DNA of 64,000 nt from Candidatus Merdivicinus excrementipullorum (GTDB taxonomy: Bacteria; Bacillota; Clostridia; Oscillospirales; Ruminococcaceae). The stretch lies in contig DVJP01000066.1 in the NCBI GenBank assembly GCA_018716725.1, forward strand, positions 1 to 64,000, in the 5' to 3' direction. Position numbers and translations under genes: made by a program. Below the pieces are notes generated by a model, which searched no databases, had not been told where the DNA came from, and saw only the letters and a program-made list of their open reading frames with translations. This document shows, piece by piece, positions 11,825 through 20,827 of the stretch (position 1 is its first letter; every line of letters starts with the position of its first letter).

Positions 11825-12406
11825 TTAATAATTTCGCACCAAGGCGGCAATTTTGCCCAAAATCGTTACTTCCTCCACGATAATGGGTTCGTAGGCCGGG
11901 TTTTCCGGCATCAGGCGGAAATAGCCTTTTTCTTTGTAGATCCGTTTCACCGTGGCTTCATCGTCGATTAAGGCCACTACAATATCCCCGTTGCGGCAGA
12001 CAGGGGTCTTTTTGACCACAATAATGTCTCCGTCCAAAATCCCGGCGCCGACCATGCTGTCCCCCCGGACATGGAGGGCGAAATAATCGTCGGAATCCCC
12101 GGCCAAGTTGGGGATGGGAATGTATTCCTCCACTTCCTCGATGGCGGTAATGGGAATCCCGGCCGTTACCGTCCCCAGCAGGGGCACGGCGCAGGCGTCG
12201 CTGGAAGGCAGCTTGATGGTGCGCTTTTTCATGCTGTCCTTGATGATATAGCCTTCCTCCGACAGTTCTTTCAGGTAGTAATGGACGGTGGAGGTAGATT
12301 TGATGCCCAGTTCCTCCCCAATTTCCCGCACAGTAGGGGAAAAGCCCCGGTTCAGGATGCAGTCGCGGATATATTCGTAAATCTTTTTCCCTTTGTCACT
12401 TAACAT
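11825..12406 (-). CDS. lexA: LexA repressor (SOS response)
   Basis: A 193-residue SOS repressor and RecA-stimulated self-cleaving serine protease. The winged-helix DNA-binding domain occupies about 1-65 (SPTVREIGEELGIKSTSTVHYYL). The cleavage site is Ala82-Gly83 in TVTAGIP. The catalytic dyad is Ser117 (GDSMVGAG) and Lys154 (EATVKR). Its first 11 bases overlap the end of the TrkA-like gene upstream. I could not find a convincing LexA box in front of it, so control may lie further upstream in the operon. recA is in this window at 31.5 kb. Confidence 0.97.
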   Translation of the reverse strand: MLSDKGKKIYEYIRDCILNRGFSPTVREIGEELGIKSTSTVHYYLKELSEEGYIIKDSMKKRTIKLPSSDACAVPLLGTVTAGIPITAIEEVEEYIPIPNLAGDSDDYFALHVRGDSMVGAGILDGDIIVVKKTPVCRNGDIVVALIDDEATVKRIYKEKGYFRLMPENPAYEPIIVEEVTILGKIAALVRNY

Positions 12407-13085
12407 ATCCCCTGCCGCTCCCTTCGTCTGTCAGCCGGAACCGTTCCTTCAGTTCGTGCATGGCATCGTCCTTGGTTAAAATCAGCAGCTTGTCTCCGGA
12501 AAAGATTAATGTGTTGCCTCGGGGAATCAGCATTTCACCGCTGCGTTCCACCGATACCACTACCATCTGTTCCGGCAGCCGGATATCCGAGAGCTTTTTA
12601 CCGGAATACTTAAAGTCGTTGGGCAGTACGATTTCCACAATGGAGGCTTCCCCTTGGTTTAAGGAGATCAGGTGTTTAATAGTGGACATATCCACTTCCC
12701 GTTCCATCAGCCGCGTAATAGCGTCGATGCTGGAAACGGCGATATCCACTCCCAGTTCCCGCATAACATCGGCGTTTTTGGGGTTGTTGGCTTTGGCAAT
12801 AGTCCGGCGGACATGGAATTCCAGCCGCCCCAGCTGACAGGCGATGAGGTTGATTTCATCCTGTCCGGAAACGGCAATGAGCACGTCCGCTTTGGCTGTA
12901 CCGGCCTCCTGCAGCGCCTCAATGGTGGTGCCGTCCCCAAAGATGACAGGGATATCTAAGTTGTTGGCCAGACGGGCGCAGGCTTCCTTTTTGGATTCTA
13001 CAACGGTTGGTTCATGGTTATGCTCCAGCAGGGCTTTGGCCAGGTAATAGCCCACAGTCCCGCCTCCTACGATTACAATTTTCAT
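12396..13085 (-). CDS. TrkA-family potassium uptake regulator (second of a pair)
   Basis: A 229-residue NAD-binding RCK protein. The Rossmann start is MKIVIVGGGTVGYYLA with an acidic residue ending strand 2 (VVES). The C-terminal 80 residues form an RCK_C-type domain. It is half the size of E. coli TrkA and resembles the single-unit KtrA/TrkA form. The partner gene at 13106-13723 precedes it by 20 bp. No TrkH/KtrB channel is in the window. It overlaps lexA, so this operon couples ion homeostasis with SOS control, perhaps only by location. Confidence 0.88.
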   Translation of the reverse strand: MKIVIVGGGTVGYYLAKALLEHNHEPTVVESKKEACARLANNLDIPVIFGDGTTIEALQEAGTAKADVLIAVSGQDEINLIACQLGRLEFHVRRTIAKANNPKNADVMRELGVDIAVSSIDAITRLMEREVDMSTIKHLISLNQGEASIVEIVLPNDFKYSGKKLSDIRLPEQMVVVSVERSGEMLIPRGNTLIFSGDKLLILTKDDAMHELKERFRLTDEGSGRGYVK

Positions 13086-13105
13086 AACGGTTCCTTTCCG
13101 GCGGC

Positions 13106-13723
13106 TCAGTCCACAATGGCGGCGACTACCAGGGAATCGCCGGCGCGGATGGTAATGGGCTGATAGGCTGCCATTGTCATAGAGCCGTCCTCATGACAGA
13201 CGGCAAAGGGGGATTTCCCCTCCCCCAGATTCAGTTCGGAAACCAGCATCCCCACCATTTTCCGGCTTACCGGGACGGTGTGGAAACTGACGGTGGACTG
13301 GCCGATAAGCACTTGGCGGTCAGGTTCCTCCATTAAAAGGTTTTTGACGGTTTCCACAGTTAAATTGGTGGGGCAGATGGTCCGCAGGCCGAAGTGTGCA
13401 AAAACATTTTCCCGCCGGGGATCATAGATCCGGGCCACAATGTTTTCCACATCGAAGTATTCCTTGGCAACCTGGCAGACCATGATGTTGGTGTTGTCGT
13501 CCGGGCTGACCGCAGCCAGGGCGTCGCAGTTTTCGATGCCCGCTTCCCGCAGCACATCCCGGTCAATGGGGATCCCCGCGGTGCAGTAGCCGCTGTAATC
13601 CGGCGGCAGTTTTTCAAAAGCAGCTTCATTGGCGTCCACAATGGTGACGCTGTGGCCCTCCCGGCTTAAGGTGGCGGCCAGCTCGGAGCCGACCTTCCCG
13701 CAGCCAACGATCAGTATATTCAT
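13106..13723 (-). CDS. TrkA-family potassium uptake regulator (first of a pair)
   Basis: A 205-residue RCK protein with the Rossmann motif MNILIVGCGKVGSELA, VDAN at the end of strand 2, and a short RCK_C domain. Start ATG 13723 has AAAGGA upstream; an extension of 31 residues into the intergenic region is not protein-like. It pairs with the gene at 12396-13085; paired half-size TrkA proteins may form hetero-oligomers on one TrkH channel. Confidence 0.86.
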   Translation of the reverse strand: MNILIVGCGKVGSELAATLSREGHSVTIVDANEAAFEKLPPDYSGYCTAGIPIDRDVLREAGIENCDALAAVSPDDNTNIMVCQVAKEYFDVENIVARIYDPRRENVFAHFGLRTICPTNLTVETVKNLLMEEPDRQVLIGQSTVSFHTVPVSRKMVGMLVSELNLGEGKSPFAVCHEDGSMTMAAYQPITIRAGDSLVVAAIVD

Positions 13724-13743
13724 AACAGAATCCTTTCTTGCGG

Positions 13744-14475
13744 TTAATTTTTCCCTTCCGCAGCTTTTTCTTGGCGGGTCATCCGCCGGTAAAAGAGCAA
13801 TCCAACCAGGGCGCACAGCCCTAAAATCCCGTAAAGAACCGCCGCCAGCACGAAATTCCCCTCCAGGATGCTGACCCCGGCATAGGTGGTAATGAGCATG
13901 CCCGGCGCCCGGCCCAGTGTGGAAATCAGTACAAAACGGTGGATACTGATGGGGGTCAAGGGGGCGATAAAGGTAAAAAAATCCTTCGGCAGCCCCGGAA
14001 TAAGGAACAGGATAAAGGTGAGCAGCTCGGCGTTTTTGGCGTTGCGGAACACCTCCAGGCGGTTCAGCTTTTTCACTTTTTTCTCATCGTGAAAAGCCGC
14101 GATAACGCCGCTGCCCAGCTTTTGGACGGCGAAGAAAACAAGGTAGGTGCCAAGAACCACGCCGCCAAGGCAAAGCAAAGCGCCGCCGATGCCTCCGTAC
14201 ATCATGCCGGAAGCCAGTTCAATAGGCTCTCCCGGCAGGAAGGCTATGGCGATCTGGCAGGTCTGGAACAAAATCAGGATTGCCGCGCCCCAAATGCCGA
14301 AGCCGGCAATAAAGCCCTGCAATTCCTCCGCCGCGTTTTCGCTCCGGAGGATGGCCCAAAGGGTATCCCGGTGGTACCAGACGAACCCGCACAGAAAAAG
14401 AGCCATCAACGCCGCGGCAGACCAGGCACAGACCGTAATGACCCGGCGGACAGCGATTTTGTTTTTTTCTTCCAT
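13744..14475 (-). CDS. TVP38/TMEM64-family membrane protein
   Basis: A 243-residue inner-membrane protein of the VTT (SNARE-associated/DedA-related) family. Hydrophobic segments lie near 17-38, 63-85, 90-125 and 210-230. Typical features are GEPIELASGMMYG and FILFLIPGLPKDFFTFIAPLTP. Distant relatives move or handle lipids; the role in bacteria is uncertain. The start is ATG 14475 with AGGAAGGG; an in-frame ATG at 14511 with GAAAGGA is a fair alternative, giving 12 more residues. It is the first gene of the operon leading to lexA, transcribed away from the metK riboswitch. Confidence 0.85.
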   Translation of the reverse strand: MEEKNKIAVRRVITVCAWSAAALMALFLCGFVWYHRDTLWAILRSENAAEELQGFIAGFGIWGAAILILFQTCQIAIAFLPGEPIELASGMMYGGIGGALLCLGGVVLGTYLVFFAVQKLGSGVIAAFHDEKKVKKLNRLEVFRNAKNAELLTFILFLIPGLPKDFFTFIAPLTPISIHRFVLISTLGRAPGMLITTYAGVSILEGNFVLAAVLYGILGLCALVGLLFYRRMTRQEKAAEGKN

Positions 14476-14621
14476 AGGCAAGCCCTTCCTGTTTGGATTG
14501 TGTACTTTCATTGTAAAAGCATTCCTTTCTGTTGTCAAGAGAAAAAGTGTTTGTAATTTGTAAATAGCGGCGGTTTTCGCCTTTTTTGGCAAAATGAAGG
14601 GGTTCTCCGCCAAAAATCCCC

Positions 14622-14924: not shown

Positions 14925-16106
14925 ATGGCACGCACTTTATTTTCCTCTGAATCCGTAACCGAAGGGCATCCCGACAAAATCTGCGACCAGATTTCCGACG
15001 CGGTCCTGGACGCCATTTTGGAAAAGGACCCCATGGGCCGCGTCGCCTGCGAAACCTGCTGCACCACCGGCATGGTTATGGTTATGGGCGAAATTTCCAC
15101 CTCCTGCTATGTGGACATCCCGAAACTCGTCCGGGAAGTCGTAGTGGGCATCGGCTACGACCGGGCCAAATACGGCTTTGACGGCCAGACCTGCGCCGTC
15201 ATCACTTCCATCGACGAGCAGTCCGGCGACATCGCCATGGGCGTGGACAAGGCCCTGGAAGCCAAAAACGGCCAGGATGCGGACGAGAACGAAAACGGCG
15301 CCGGCGACCAGGGCATGATGTTCGGCTACGCCTGCGACGAAACCCCGGAACTGATGCCCATGCCCATTTCCCTGGCCCACAAGCTGGCAAAACGCCTGAC
15401 GGACGTTCGGAAAGACGGCGCCCTGCCCTACCTGCGCCCCGACGGCAAAACCCAGGTGACGGTGGAGTACGAGGACGGCGTCCCGGTCCGTGTGGACACC
15501 ATCGTGGTTTCCTCCCAGCACGCCGAGGATGTGCCTTTAGAGCAGATCCGCAAGGACATCATCGAAAACGTGGTGAAACCCATTATTCCGGCGAACCTTC
15601 TGGATGAAAACACCAAGTATTACGTGAACCCCACCGGCCGGTTCGTCATCGGCGGCCCCGCCGGGGACAGCGGCCTCACCGGGCGGAAGATCATCGTGGA
15701 CACCTACGGCGGCTATGCCCGCCACGGCGGCGGCGCCTTCTCCGGCAAGGACCCCACAAAGGTGGACCGTTCCGCCGCTTACGCCGCCCGCTGGGTTGCC
15801 AAAAACGTGGTGGCCGCCGGTTTGGCCAAGAAATGCGAGATCGAGCTGGCTTACGCCATCGGCGTGGCACACCCCGTCTCCATTATGGTGGACACCTTCG
15901 GCACCGGCGTGGTTTCCGATAAGAAAATCGCGGAAGCCGTGGAAAAAGTTTTTGACCTGCGCCCCACCGCCATTATCAAGGCTTTGGATCTGCGCCGCCC
16001 CATTTACCGGCAGCTGGCCTCCTACGGCCACATGGGCCGGGAGGACCTGGACGTTGCCTGGGAAAAGACCGACCGGGTGGACGCCCTGAAAGAAGCGGTA
16101 AAATAA
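14925..16106 (+). CDS. metK: S-adenosylmethionine synthetase
   Basis: A 393-residue enzyme making SAM from methionine and ATP. Seen: [20 protein letters not shown] at the N-terminus, the [10 protein letters not shown] active-site loop, [19 protein letters not shown], and [19 protein letters not shown] near residues 265-285. The start is ATG 14925 with AAAGGAG at proper spacing; the 13 codons before it are the ribosome-site region. Codon third positions are almost all C or G, more extreme than the neighbours, which fits high expression. It is controlled by the riboswitch upstream and ends at its own terminator. Confidence 0.98.
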
Positions 16107-16125
16107 GCCCCTTGATACAGAAAAC

Positions 16126-16167
16126 GAAGGAGAAGCCCAAAGCTCTACACGGGCCTCTCCTTCCTTT
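16126..16167 (+). terminator. metK terminator
   Basis: GAAGGAGAAGCCC pairs with GGGCCTCTCCTTC (one mismatch) around a 12-base loop, followed by CTTT. It starts 20 bp after the metK stop. Confidence 0.75.
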
Positions 16168-16193
16168 AAACTCAGAAAAAAGGAGTGGATGAA

Positions 16194-17135
16194 ATGCTCA
16201 GCAAACACGGACAAAAACTGGCGGCGGACATGAACCTGCTGCCCTATCCCAAAGAAGGCTTCCTTTGCGGGAAAATCGGGGATATCCCGGTGATTATTGG
16301 AGAACTGCCGGATCAGAGGCTGGTTGTGCGCCTGTGGGCCAAACCAGGCGACGCCGCCCCTTCCAAAGAATTAGAGGATTTTCTGCGGATGGAGCTGCCG
16401 GATCTGCCCAAAGGCTTTCAGTGTAAACGGGAGGAATACGGCTGGGCATTTTTGCTCCCGCCCATGATGTACCGGAAAAAGCTGGAAACCATCCATTCCT
16501 TGTTCGGCGCTTTGTCCCAGTATTTCAGTGAAAACGGCATGGTTCCCTGCTGCGCCCACTGCGGAAGCCCAGAACCGGCGGGGCTTTACCAGTGCGGGGA
16601 AGGGGCCGCCAGCTTTTGCGAAAACTGCGCCGCGGAGTGCAGCCAGGCTTTGCAGTCGGCCGCCGCGGAACGGAAAAACAAGCCGGGCAACCTGCTGCTG
16701 GGGCTGATTGGCGCAGTAATCGGCGCGGTTCCGGGCGTCGTTTTATGGCTCCTCATTTACCGGCTGGGATATATCGCGGCAGTGTGCGGCCTGCTTTTGG
16801 CCTTCGGGGCTGTCAAGGGGTACTCCATACTGGGCAAGCGGCTGGACAAGAAGGGGACGGTTGTCAGCGTCATTGTTTCGGTGGTGATGCTCACTGCGGC
16901 CCTGATGCTCTGCTACGGCTGGGCGCTTTACGATGTGTTCGGGCCGGAGGGCTTCTCCTTTTTGGACTGCATCCTGGCGGTTCCCACAACCCTGGCGGTG
17001 TATCCGGAAATCCTCGCCTCTTTTGTGGGGGAATTTATCATCGGCCTCCTGCTGACCGGCGTGGGCAGCTTCGCCTCGGTGAAACGGCTCTATCAGCAGG
17101 CCAATCCCAGCACCGCTTTCCGGAAGCTGGTTTAA
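16194..17135 (+). CDS. zinc-ribbon membrane protein of unknown function (paralogue 1)
   Basis: A 313-residue protein I cannot assign to a named family. Residues 1-115 form a soluble alpha/beta-looking domain. Then comes a cysteine cluster CCAHC (119-123), Cys134 and CENC (142-145), likely one zinc site. The C-terminal half has about four membrane helices (about 166-190, 192-208, 220-243, 255-305). It shares its whole architecture with the next gene: AKPGD/E near residue 50, SQYF..NG..PCCA.CG before the helices, and KGYSILG/KGYALLG between helices. Start: ATG 16194, eight bases after AGGAG, preferred to GTG 16185, which overlaps that site. Confidence 0.8.
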   Translation: MLSKHGQKLAADMNLLPYPKEGFLCGKIGDIPVIIGELPDQRLVVRLWAKPGDAAPSKELEDFLRMELPDLPKGFQCKREEYGWAFLLPPMMYRKKLETIHSLFGALSQYFSENGMVPCCAHCGSPEPAGLYQCGEGAASFCENCAAECSQALQSAAAERKNKPGNLLLGLIGAVIGAVPGVVLWLLIYRLGYIAAVCGLLLAFGAVKGYSILGKRLDKKGTVVSVIVSVVMLTAALMLCYGWALYDVFGPEGFSFLDCILAVPTTLAVYPEILASFVGEFIIGLLLTGVGSFASVKRLYQQANPSTAFRKLV

Positions 17136-17161
17136 CGGTTTCATAAGGGAGAGAAATTGAG

Positions 17162-18193
17162 ATGTTAGGGAAGAATCTGCGGGCTATGGCCCAGGGCCTG
17201 GGTTTCCTTTGGGACGCAAACTGCAAATTCCTGTACGGGAGGATTGGGCCTTACCCGGCTTGGGTCCGGGAAATCCCGGGGAGCCAGCTCCTGCTGTCGG
17301 CGGCGGCAAAGCCGGGAGAAAACGCCGTCCTGCCGGCTGCGGAGGACGTCCGCCGGATCCTGCCGGAGGGTCCGATCCTTTCTATTAAGGTTACCCCTTT
17401 CCGATGGCAGGTTGTGGTGAAGCGGGGAAAAACCCCGGAAACCACCCTGCTTCTGAAACGGGTTTTTGATACCCTGGGGCAGTATTTTGCCCAAAACGGC
17501 TACCGCCCCTGCTGCGCCAAATGCGGCGCGGAAGGGGTGATGCCCATTTACCAGTGCGGGCAGATTATACGGGCTTTATGCGATCACTGCGCCGGGGAAA
17601 CGGCGTTTCTGGCGGAAAAAGACCGGAAGCGCCCCAGCAAGCTGGGCAAAGGGATGTTGGGGGCTTTGGGCGGGACGGCCCTTGGCCTTGCGGCCTCCAT
17701 TTTGCTGGTTATTCTGGCCTGGTTTGTCTTTCTGCTGGCTTTTTTCGCCGTGACCGGGGGAATTCTCGCCCTTTTGGGGGATTCTGTTGACTTGGACACC
17801 GCAATGTTTCTGGCGTTTATGTTGCTGATGATCCCGGGAGTAATGAGCGTTTTTCTAATAACATCGGTTTGCGGATTTTTCATGATGCTGCCCGCCTCCA
17901 AGGGGTACGCCCTTTTGGGCGGGAAATACGACGTCCGGGGAATCGCCGTCAGCGTCCTCTGTGTCGGAGCTTTCCTATTTGCTTTCTATTTTTGGCTGTT
18001 GGGCGGGCTGTCTTTTGCGGAACCGGACTATTTTTCCATGGCGGTGATCCAATTTGGCGGGCTTTATTTTGACATGGACGGTTTAGTGGCTTCCATTATT
18101 TTCTGCGCTTGTTACGTCCCGGGCATTGCCATAGCGGGCTTTGAGGAAATGGACCGGCAAAAACGCAGAGAAGCCTTCCGGCGGCTCCTTTGA
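17162..18193 (+). CDS. zinc-ribbon membrane protein of unknown function (paralogue 2)
   Basis: A 343-residue paralogue of the preceding gene, 26 bp downstream. Cysteines are CCAKC (117-121), Cys132 and CDHC (140-143), matching the spacing of paralogue 1. About four or five hydrophobic segments follow, the longest near 165-200 and 215-245. The N-terminal domain keeps the same pattern (RIGPYPAWVREIPGSQLLL, AAKPGE). The arrangement of soluble domain, zinc ribbon and membrane domain suggests a membrane-tethered sensor or assembly factor, but there is no catalytic motif, so no function is proposed. Start ATG 17162 follows GGGAGAG. Confidence 0.8.
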   Translation: MLGKNLRAMAQGLGFLWDANCKFLYGRIGPYPAWVREIPGSQLLLSAAAKPGENAVLPAAEDVRRILPEGPILSIKVTPFRWQVVVKRGKTPETTLLLKRVFDTLGQYFAQNGYRPCCAKCGAEGVMPIYQCGQIIRALCDHCAGETAFLAEKDRKRPSKLGKGMLGALGGTALGLAASILLVILAWFVFLLAFFAVTGGILALLGDSVDLDTAMFLAFMLLMIPGVMSVFLITSVCGFFMMLPASKGYALLGGKYDVRGIAVSVLCVGAFLFAFYFWLLGGLSFAEPDYFSMAVIQFGGLYFDMDGLVASIIFCACYVPGIAIAGFEEMDRQKRREAFRRLL

Positions 18194-18256
18194 CGCACCT
18201 TTTTGCCCTTTCTTTCATAATATGGGGTATCTTATGGAAGAAAGGGCGGGATTTTG

Positions 18257-18583
18257 ATGTGGACATATTTTTGGGCCGGCCTTTTGGCCGGGTTGATTAT
18301 CTGGGCAGTAGCTGAAGCGGCTTTGCGGCTGCGCAGGCCGGTTTCCAAAGGGATGCGGGAAGAGGTTTTCGCGGTGCTGGAGCTTACAAAGCCGTCGGAG
18401 GACTTGGAATACACCCTGCGGCGGATCAAAGCGGATTTTTCCGGCTGCGGGTTTACCGGCTGCCGGATCCTTTTGGCGGACCGGGAGCTTTCGGAGAATG
18501 ACCGCCAGGTGGCGGCCCGGACGGAAGGGGTCTACCTGGTTCCGTCCCGGGTGCTGGAAATCCTGCCCTGGCGGACGGAATAA
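18257..18583 (+). CDS. small single-pass membrane protein, unknown
   Basis: A 108-residue protein with one N-terminal membrane helix (about residues 4-26, WAGLLAGLIIWAVAEAAL) and an 80-residue cytoplasmic or surface domain rich in charged residues. No motif is recognised. ATG 18257 is preferred to TTG 18254. It lies 28 bp before the recD2 start, so the two may be co-transcribed. Confidence 0.65.
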   Translation: MWTYFWAGLLAGLIIWAVAEAALRLRRPVSKGMREEVFAVLELTKPSEDLEYTLRRIKADFSGCGFTGCRILLADRELSENDRQVAARTEGVYLVPSRVLEILPWRTE

Positions 18584-18610: not shown

Positions 18611-20827
18611 ATGAGAGAACAGGAAATGGTGCAGATCCGGGGAACGGTGGAAGACGTCCTCTTTGCCAACCCGGAAAATGGGTTCGCGGTCATTGAACTG
18701 GACACCGGGGAGGAGCTTCTGCCGGTGGTGGGGGAGCTTTGCGGCGTGGAGCCGGGGGAAGAGCTGACCATCACCGGCAGCTATGGAAACCACCCCAAAT
18801 TCGGCTACCAGTTTAAGGCCGCGCTCTTTGAGCGGAGCCTGCCCACTACTCTCACCGCCATCCGCAAATACCTGGCCTCCGGGGCCGTCAAGGGCATCGG
18901 CCCGGCTCTGGCCGGACGGATTGTGGACACCTTCGGTGCTAAAACCCTGGAGGTGCTGGAAAAATCCCCGGACCGCCTGTCCGAGGTCAAGGGCATCTCC
19001 CAGCGCAAGGCTAAGGAGCTGGTGCAGGAGTTTAACCAGATGTTCGGCATGCGGATGGTGATGATCTTCCTGTCCTCCCACGGGCTCAGCTCTTCCCAGA
19101 GCGTCAAGGTCTATAAAAAGTGGGGCCCCATGGCCATGGACCTTTTGAAAGCCAACCCCTACCTGCTCTGCAGCGGGGAGTTCGGAGTGGAGTTTGAAAA
19201 GGCCGACCGGATGGCCCTCTCCTTAAACCTTTCGCCGGACAGCCCGGAACGGGTTTTCGGCGGCATTACCTATATGCTCCGCCACAACCTCCACAACGGC
19301 CACACCTGCCTTGCACGGGAGGTGGTGGCCGCCAAGTGCGCCCAGCTTTTGCAGCTTTCCAAAGACCGGGTGGAGGCGGAAATCGACACCCGCATCGGCG
19401 AGGAAGAGCTGTTTTCCATCCAGCGGAACCGGGAGTATCTGTTCCTGCCGGATTTGTACGGGGCGGAACGGTATGTGGCCCTGCGGATCGGGCTGATGCT
19501 CCAGAACCGGTATTTTGAAACCCGGAATGTGGACAAAATGATTGATAAAGTGGAGCAGGAAAAAGGGATAAAATACGAGGGCCTTCAGCGGGAAGCCATC
19601 CGCCAGGCCCTTTCCCGCAGCGTCCTGATTCTCACCGGCGGCCCCGGCACCGGCAAAACCACCACCTTAAACGCCATTATCGAGCTTTTGGAAGGGGAAG
19701 GCTTAAAGCTTGCCATCGCCGCCCCAACGGGACGGGCCGCCAAGCGGATCTCCGAAGTCACCGGCAGGGAGGCCAAAACCGTCCACCGGCTTTTGGAGGT
19801 GGATTTCAGCGACGAAAGCCGCAGCAGGTTTCTCCACAACGAACAGCACCCCTTGGACGCCGACGCGGTGGTCATTGACGAAATGTCCATGGTGGACATT
19901 TTCCTCTTTGAATCCCTTCTGCGGGGCATTAAAATGGGCTGCCGCCTGATTTTGGTGGGGGACTCGGACCAGCTGCCCTCGGTGGGGCCGGGAAACGTCC
20001 TCCGGGACCTGATTGACAGCGGGAAAATCCCCACGGTGGAATTAAAGCAGGTGTTCCGCCAGGCGGCGGAAAGTCTCATCGTCACCAACGCCCACAAAAT
20101 CGTGGAAGGGGAGATGCCGGACTTGACAGTCAAGGACCGGGACTTCTTTTTCCTCAGCCGTTTAAACGCGGAAAACGCCGCCAAAACCGTGGTGGAGCTG
20201 GCGGCGGAGCGCCTGCCCAAAAGCTACGGCTTTTCCCCGGTGGCGGACATCCAGGTGTTGGCCCCTCAGCGGAAAGGGGATTTGGGGGTCAACACTCTGA
20301 ACACCCGGCTCCAGGCGGCGTTAAATCCCCCGGCTTCCGGGAAAAAGGAGTGGAAGGGGATGTTTTACACCTTCCGGGAAGGGGACAAGGTGCTGCAAAC
20401 CCGGAACAACTACGACATCGAGTGGGACAAGAACGGCGAAAAGGGCATGGGGGTTTTCAACGGCGACATCGGCATTATCAAGGAAATCGACCATCCCGCC
20501 GGGACCATCGACATTGACTTTGACGATCGGATCTGCACCTATACCTTCGATATGGCGGCGGAATTGGAGCTGGCCTACGCCGTCACCGTCCACAAAAGCC
20601 AGGGCAGCGAGTATGACGCGGTAATCCTGCCCATTTTGGGCGGATACGACAAGCTCTATTTCCGGAACCTTTTGTACACCGCCGTCACCCGGGCCAGGAA
20701 GCTCTTAATTTTGGTAGGCTCCCAGAAACGCATCGCCTATATGGTGGAAAATAACCTCCGCACCCTGCGCTACACTGGGCTGAAGTTCTTTTTGCAGCAG
20801 ACGGGGATAGAGGAAAATCCCAGGTAA
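18611..20827 (+). CDS. recD2: RecD2-type ATP-dependent DNA helicase
   Basis: A 738-residue superfamily 1B 5'-3' helicase, the RecD2 form found without RecBC. The N-terminal domain includes an OB-like region and helix-hairpin-helix repeats (KYLASGAVKGIGPALAGRIV, SEVKGISQRKAKELV). Walker A is GGPGTGKTTT near residue 343, and DEMSMVD near 425 is motif II. The UvrD-like C-terminal part has AYAVTVHKSQGSEYD. Members act in DNA repair and lagging-strand processing. ATG 18611 follows GGAAGGCGGG. The gene ends against repeats and a bidirectional terminator. Confidence 0.93.
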   Translation: MREQEMVQIRGTVEDVLFANPENGFAVIELDTGEELLPVVGELCGVEPGEELTITGSYGNHPKFGYQFKAALFERSLPTTLTAIRKYLASGAVKGIGPALAGRIVDTFGAKTLEVLEKSPDRLSEVKGISQRKAKELVQEFNQMFGMRMVMIFLSSHGLSSSQSVKVYKKWGPMAMDLLKANPYLLCSGEFGVEFEKADRMALSLNLSPDSPERVFGGITYMLRHNLHNGHTCLAREVVAAKCAQLLQLSKDRVEAEIDTRIGEEELFSIQRNREYLFLPDLYGAERYVALRIGLMLQNRYFETRNVDKMIDKVEQEKGIKYEGLQREAIRQALSRSVLILTGGPGTGKTTTLNAIIELLEGEGLKLAIAAPTGRAAKRISEVTGREAKTVHRLLEVDFSDESRSRFLHNEQHPLDADAVVIDEMSMVDIFLFESLLRGIKMGCRLILVGDSDQLPSVGPGNVLRDLIDSGKIPTVELKQVFRQAAESLIVTNAHKIVEGEMPDLTVKDRDFFFLSRLNAENAAKTVVELAAERLPKSYGFSPVADIQVLAPQRKGDLGVNTLNTRLQAALNPPASGKKEWKGMFYTFREGDKVLQTRNNYDIEWDKNGEKGMGVFNGDIGIIKEIDHPAGTIDIDFDDRICTYTFDMAAELELAYAVTVHKSQGSEYDAVILPILGGYDKLYFRNLLYTAVTRARKLLILVGSQKRIAYMVENNLRTLRYTGLKFFLQQTGIEENPR

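Follow-up and report, generated by a model that had tools for sequence, protein, structure and literature searches.

Class I type III secretion chaperones, among them SycT, Spa15 and CesT, and the proteins of the YbjN family (PF10722: AmyR, E. coli YbjN and DR1245) form a fold group of soluble domains. The AmyR paper describes AmyR as a dimer and the YbjN proteins as having no conserved surface, and suggests that YbjN proteins act through contacts with other proteins (PMC5398634). TtfA, the mycobacterial partner of MmpL3, is described as working in complex with this transporter (PMC6593404). A second soluble element of relevance here is the zinc-binding domain of ClpX (PF06689), which dimerises and recognises substrates and adaptors (PMC9035409, PMC5890618); a ClpX-like dimeric treble clef is also present in the Bacillus subtilis anti-sigma factor CsfB (PMC5890618).

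Here, we investigated two neighbouring genes, called A and B for simplicity, in a 64,000-nucleotide stretch of DNA from Candidatus Merdivicinus excrementipullorum (contig DVJP01000066.1; called the window). A sequence-only reading had described them as tandem zinc-ribbon membrane proteins without recognised family and had seen in the tandem arrangement, with its conserved metal site, a hint of a heteromeric membrane complex not described, or at least not named, before. Our analysis indicates that A and B belong to a real family that is widespread in Clostridia and carries no name. They combine soluble parts that look like known folds with a membrane module, and a new kind of system is not supported on present evidence. 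No published account of the family was found in the open-access literature, and the available part of the paper on the Lipocone superfamily (PMC12419801) contains no family like A/B among those described.

Results

Genes A and B are adjacent paralogues with the same domain order

Gene A runs from an ATG at 16194 to a stop at 17135 and gene B from an ATG at 17162 to a stop at 18193. Both lie on the plus strand, separated by 26 bp, and each is preceded by a plausible ribosome-binding site; a GTG at 16185, upstream of the ATG of A, falls inside the ribosome-binding site of A. The features of the locus are listed below.

14925..16106, plus strand: metK (S-adenosylmethionine synthetase), assigned by Pfam; conserved upstream neighbour in the genus
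16194..17135, plus strand: gene A (P0001), 313 aa; YbjN/type III chaperone-like domain, treble-clef-like finger (predicted) and membrane module
16194..16538, plus strand: N-terminal domain of A, residues 1-115; type III secretion chaperone/YbjN fold, presumed cytoplasmic
16539..16637, plus strand: C4 finger of A, residues 116-148; presumed ligands C120, C123, C142 and C145
16692..17102, plus strand: membrane module of A, residues 167-303, from model and hydropathy; helices in the predicted model at residues 167-191, 198-214, 219-252, 256-269 and 271-303
17162..18193, plus strand: gene B (P0002), 343 aa; divergent tandem paralogue of A with the domain order of A
17162..17500, plus strand: N-terminal domain of B, residues 1-113; homologous to the N-terminal domain of A
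17501..17599, plus strand: C4 finger of B; presumed ligands C118, C121, C140 and C143
17723..17857, plus strand: 45-residue hydrophobic insertion of B, residues about 188-232, from alignment and hydropathy
18254..18583, plus strand: small conserved ORF, no Pfam match; downstream neighbour in the genus
18611..20827, plus strand: recD2-type helicase, assigned by Pfam; conserved downstream neighbour in the genus

A and B alike consist of a soluble N-terminal part, a Cys cluster and a hydrophobic C-terminal part, as the sequence-only reading had it. BLASTP aligned the two proteins with 27% identity over 272 columns (98 bits, E 7e-28), a likeness which, judged by this alignment, is far beyond chance. 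The AlphaFold2 model of A reached a pLDDT of 90.1 and a pTM of 0.69. The insertion of B sits between the first and the second membrane helices and is missing from A. Relative to the nearest (sister) species, dN/dS was 0.18 for A and 0.36 for B, to be compared with 0.012 for metK and 0.05 for recD2, and both A and B are under purifying selection. The nearest named relative found is Candidatus Merdivicinus intestinigallinarum (DVOW01000012.1, one locus found in a contig search with a single-protein query; 87% identity to A). The assembly containing the window has a size of 2.78 Mb. Elsewhere in the window, two adjoining TrkA-N-like ORFs (12396-13816, minus strand; potassium uptake regulator type, with the TrkA reading made by eye) lie beside a VTT-domain membrane protein (13747-14520, minus strand; Pfam match).

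Pfam returned no match for A and two sub-threshold matches for B, and in NCBIfam no family was reached, with one chance match for A (E 1.3). Scans of 22 relatives, 62 membrane modules and 64 N-terminal domains gave scattered weak matches only, among the families listed, and the earlier description of proteins without a recognised family therefore holds for Pfam and NCBIfam. Matches of the family profile to PAK1 and C/EBP among solved structures (E 0.07 and worse) were read as composition matches and set aside. A first single-sequence search matched 25 of 100 relatives. The profile A1 matched 67/295 genomes of the order, 43/391 of the class and 17/398 of the phylum, counts that include partial, membrane-module-only and some weak matches; 228 of the 295 genomes of the order gave no profile match.

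A single gene is the usual state

Among seven genomes of the genus, two carry the pair, four carry one copy and one (G003, 98% complete) carries none. In G003, metK is directly followed by the small ORF and then by recD2 in an otherwise syntenic interval (L234:2491-2599), hence both genes are dispensable there. In a tree of 63 rows, the two B proteins group within the clade of the genus, which has 7 rows and a support of 100/100, and their branch is long (1.45); the tandem pairs of two other genomes, G335 and G276, each join their own partner, so that the duplications look independent. The full-length list, which omits some matches, shows tandem copies in 5 of its 58 genomes; several of these genomes are fragmented, and second copies may be missed in them. 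Duplication is recurrent and the usual state is a single gene; B is a lineage-specific, fast-evolving duplicate that has begun to diverge. The suggestion that the adjacency of A and B signals a heteromeric complex is not borne out by a pair that is present in 2/7 genomes of the genus and in tandem in 5/58 genomes of the full-length list, with duplications that look independent, and to the question raised with it, whether both genes are always adjacent elsewhere, the answer is that there is usually one copy. A heteromeric pair as the general state is rejected on the copy counts together with the tree.

The N-terminal domain resembles YbjN proteins and type III secretion chaperones

In the model of A, the N-terminal domain shows the order helix, three strands, helix, two strands, helix, with an additional short strand at residues 16-18. 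This is the element order of class I chaperones, and the pLDDT in this region is about 90. The chaperone-like alpha-3beta-alpha-2beta-alpha fold is thus present in the model, with matches to 6vu7, 5fr7, 4h5b and 2plg. In the Foldseek search, ranks 1-12 were all type III chaperones, YbjN proteins or PA14_16140 (best E 0.009, none below 0.001). VIA-align placed SycT first (Z 8.6, rmsd 3.0 over 102 residues), with Spa15 at 8.5, YbjN at 7.4 and TtfA (6t84) at 7.3 over 111 residues; identity in the SycT and Spa15 alignments was only 8% and 4%, respectively. TtfA comes from Actinobacteria, unlike the A/B family, and to our knowledge it has neither a finger nor a multi-helix module of the A/B kind. 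The first 28 rows comprised 26 type III chaperones or YbjN-family proteins, one TtfA and one designed filament, classed by title, with DR_1245 and T110839 counted as YbjN following the AmyR paper (PMC5398634).

Since Z values of 7 to 8 are typical of models without a clear match and the best value of 8.6 lies just above this range, an independent profile-profile test was sought. Alignment with hhalign of the N-terminal domain profile (64 rows) against a Bacillota PF10722 profile (15 rows, from 21 loci; one row was dropped for bad coordinates and five others were unused) gave E values of 4.3e-4 and 6.9e-4, and of 8.2e-5 with the roles swapped. The alignment was colinear across 103-104 columns, with a probability of 27 to 61%, which falls short of a proof of homology. 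In the controls, the lowest E value from 60 column shuffles was 0.067, reversed profiles gave 0.24 and 0.27, and the membrane module, used as a control, gave 0.51. The PF10722 HMM matched neither A nor B and was absent from the families listed for 22 members and 64 N-terminal domains, no type III chaperone HMM appeared among the families listed for A, B, the relatives or the N-terminal domains, and a search of solved structures with the N-terminal domain profile returned nothing (best E 0.33).

We read the N-terminal domain as belonging to the YbjN/type III chaperone fold group, of which it would be a divergent and probably YbjN-like member; as the PF10722 HMM fails to recognise it, we do not call it a YbjN protein. 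It shares with YbjN (PF10722) the element order and the fold in the model of A, and the A/B family likewise has no conserved surface; the profile comparison suggests a weak similarity beyond that of the controls, at the low probability given above. Unlike YbjN proteins, A and B also carry a C4 finger and a membrane module in the same chain, and unlike type III chaperones, they are membrane-anchored and have no secretion or effector gene among their conserved neighbours. The domain, which we infer to be cytoplasmic, is the most variable part of the family, which fits lineage-specific clients. As separate observations on YbjN proteins, a Bacillota PF10722 protein (L194:1267-1893, plus strand) carries an N-terminal zinc ribbon of its own (CPNC...CPSC) and so joins YbjN to a zinc-type motif independently of the A/B family, and the genus member G001 encodes a free-standing YbjN-family protein (L163:1438-1854, minus strand); the same search of the window's genome returned none.

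A conserved four-ligand finger appears nearest to the ClpX zinc-binding domain among two families tested

Six Cys are common to the pair (119, 120, 123, 134, 142 and 145 in A; 117, 118, 121, 132, 140 and 143 in B), with identical gaps. Among 63 full-length relatives, C120, C123 and C145 are each kept in 62, position 142 is Cys in 48 and His in 13, and two Cys are poorly kept (C119 in 27/63, C134 in 7/63). By this alignment, the metal site comprises four ligands across the family, in the pattern C-x2-C-x18-[C/H]-x2-C. The matched spacing claimed earlier for a five-Cys cluster is thus correct, with six Cys in the pair and four across the family in place of five. The exchange of Cys for His at position 142 is consistent with metal binding, which we infer for the finger.

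In the model of A, the finger consists of a knuckle, a beta hairpin and a helix, and the second pair of ligands lies where the helix begins; the finger is predicted to be treble-clef-like. The same elements and the spacing C-x2-C-x18-C-x2-C are found in the ClpX zinc-binding domain and in CsfB; unlike ClpX, the A/B family has no AAA+ module and carries His at one ligand position in 13/63 members. Compared by hhalign with 29 ClpX zinc-binding domains drawn from the same order (1 of 30 ClpX loci yielded no usable row), the finger profile gave E 6.8e-9, Prob 95.8 and a score of 30.8 over 33 columns. Among 60 shuffles that retained the ligand columns, the lowest E was 5.7e-5 and no score exceeded 18.3, indicating that the finger resembles the ClpX profile beyond the ligand columns. 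A six-row set of N-terminal zinc ribbons also matched, less well (Prob 92.2, E 6e-7, 22 columns), which makes the ClpX-type assignment a preference and not an exclusive one; of the two families tested, the ClpX zinc-binding domain appears nearest by profile comparison. The term zinc ribbon used in the sequence-only reading captured a conserved metal-type site and was imprecise as to its kind, given a model that is treble-clef-like and a profile nearer to the ClpX domain than to one zinc-ribbon set. The curated cut-off of PF06689 was not reached in the 22 family members scanned (best E 0.11, in 2 of them). A search of 59 genomes of the order found the ClpX-type finger family itself in 54.

The membrane part forms a module of its own

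The A/B-type membrane part contains four main hydrophobic segments, supporting the membrane domain proposed earlier for both proteins. It is a separate module, found alone in L015, L017 and L148 and with other C-terminal soluble parts in L166, L167 and L175. In L020, L171, L178 and L179, which have no YbjN-like domain, it follows N-terminal zinc ribbons and linkers; in the genus g16, a long linker lies between finger and membrane module. A distant relative (L173:1869-2966, minus strand) has a different N-terminal domain ahead of the finger and the membrane part. The glycine-rich first helix of the module (G-x2-G-A) is conserved, as is a G-Y motif. Over 62 rows, the C-terminal 18 residues carry a mean charge of +2.2 and no signal peptide was evident by eye, which together suggests that the N- and C-terminal ends are both cytoplasmic.

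The model of the module reached a pLDDT of 92.2 and a pTM of 0.84. Against solved structures no clear match was obtained: the lowest Foldseek E value was 1.5, and the highest Z, 6.6, belonged to a designed helical protein. A weak or missing structural match of this kind does not show a new fold. Pfam scans of the module in 62 members gave scattered weak hydrophobic matches only, among the families listed, including FUSC_2 (8/62 members, best E 8.6e-5), glycine zipper and others. A MotA_ExbB match of B (E 0.0073, below the cut-off) covered 35 residues of hydrophobic helix, occurred in 1/22 members and was rejected. A piece resembling the membrane module (E 6e-4) was seen in MT835977.1:11425-11769, an unannotated 14 kb record from human faeces labelled Bacteriophage sp. 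A mobile-element origin is not favoured, in view of this single weak match to a phage record, the lack of any plasmid match and the fixed metK-recD2 context in the genus.

Gene context is conserved within the genus

In 65 stretches compared, no conserved neighbour was found outside the genus and one related genus (G036), and gene context therefore yields no client. A response-regulator-type gene lies just downstream in three of these stretches (L081, L099 and L130), a call made by scanning the L099 protein and, for L081 and L130, by homology to it. A terminator-like inverted repeat after metK, near 16125-16160, was seen by eye and was not listed by the scan; owing to this repeat, the A-B pair may have its own promoter. 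The same scan found no sigma-70-like promoter.

Discussion

The reading we prefer, held tentatively and at somewhat less than even confidence, is that the A/B proteins are membrane-tethered dimeric adaptors, which would keep a client protein bound on the cytoplasmic side. Dimerisation would involve both the chaperone-fold domain and the ClpX-like finger, the dimer would hold a stretch of the client protein at the membrane, and the client would be handed to, or kept with, a membrane complex. Against this reading stand the survival of G003 without the family and the lack of conserved neighbours pointing to a client or complex beyond the genus and G036. B may pair with itself or with A; an A-B dimer is possible because both soluble parts resemble domains that dimerise. 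That a heteromeric membrane complex needs both A and B as subunits we regard as improbable: the two genes are in tandem, 26 bp apart, are both kept in the sister species and share the same soluble domains, and type III chaperones can heterodimerise (SycN-YscB, 1xkp, is in the match list), but four of the seven genomes of the genus carry one copy, B looks like a rapidly evolving duplicate that arose within the genus (branch 1.45), and tandem pairs are seen in 5/58 genomes of the full-length list.

Three further explanations were weighed. The protein could be an accessory subunit of an envelope transporter or synthase, of the TtfA-MmpL3 type, with the soluble domain docking on, or feeding intermediates to, a larger membrane machine. 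TtfA is indeed among the structural matches, it is a protein that works with a transporter (PMC6593404), and the separately mobile membrane module could be the docking part; we nevertheless consider this explanation unlikely, given that none of the conserved neighbours is a gene for a transporter or for the envelope and that the family is missing from many genomes of the order (228/295 without match). Somewhat less likely again is a metal- or redox-responsive membrane regulator, in which the C4 finger would free zinc on stress and the soluble domain would then bind or free a regulator. The near-invariant ligands with their Cys/His exchange would suit this explanation, as would the anti-sigma role of CsfB with its ClpX-like treble clef (PMC5890618) and the response-regulator-type gene just downstream in L081, L099 and L130; these cases amount to 3/65 stretches, however, and the conserved neighbours include neither a sigma-factor gene nor a sensor gene. 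Alternatively, the protein could be a membrane-bound adaptor that makes deliveries to ClpXP or a different AAA+ protease, with a finger that mimics or pairs with the ClpX zinc-binding domain. The finger's closest profile match is the ClpX domain and ClpX-type fingers occur in 54/59 genomes searched in the order, but the shared features are limited to shape and ligand pattern and CsfB (PMC5890618) shows the same likeness with an anti-sigma role, which leaves this the least probable of the explanations and a very improbable one.

The preferred reading of a membrane-tethered dimeric adaptor has a broader form, in which the family would be a new, widespread Clostridia class of adaptors. A single membrane anchor would carry both a type III chaperone-like domain that holds clients and a ClpX-like recognition finger, particular clients would be brought to ClpXP or to a membrane complex, and repeated tandem duplications would give rise to heterodimers of new specificity. 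This broader form is a long shot at present. The family is common in Clostridia, yet it has no Pfam or NCBIfam entry, and the likeness of its soluble parts to a chaperone fold and a ClpX finger turns hypothetical membrane proteins into testable protein-interaction adaptors. The hosts of the A/B family lie outside the bacterial groups known for type III secretion. If true, the adaptor reading would place a chaperone-type fold on the membrane in bacteria outside these groups.
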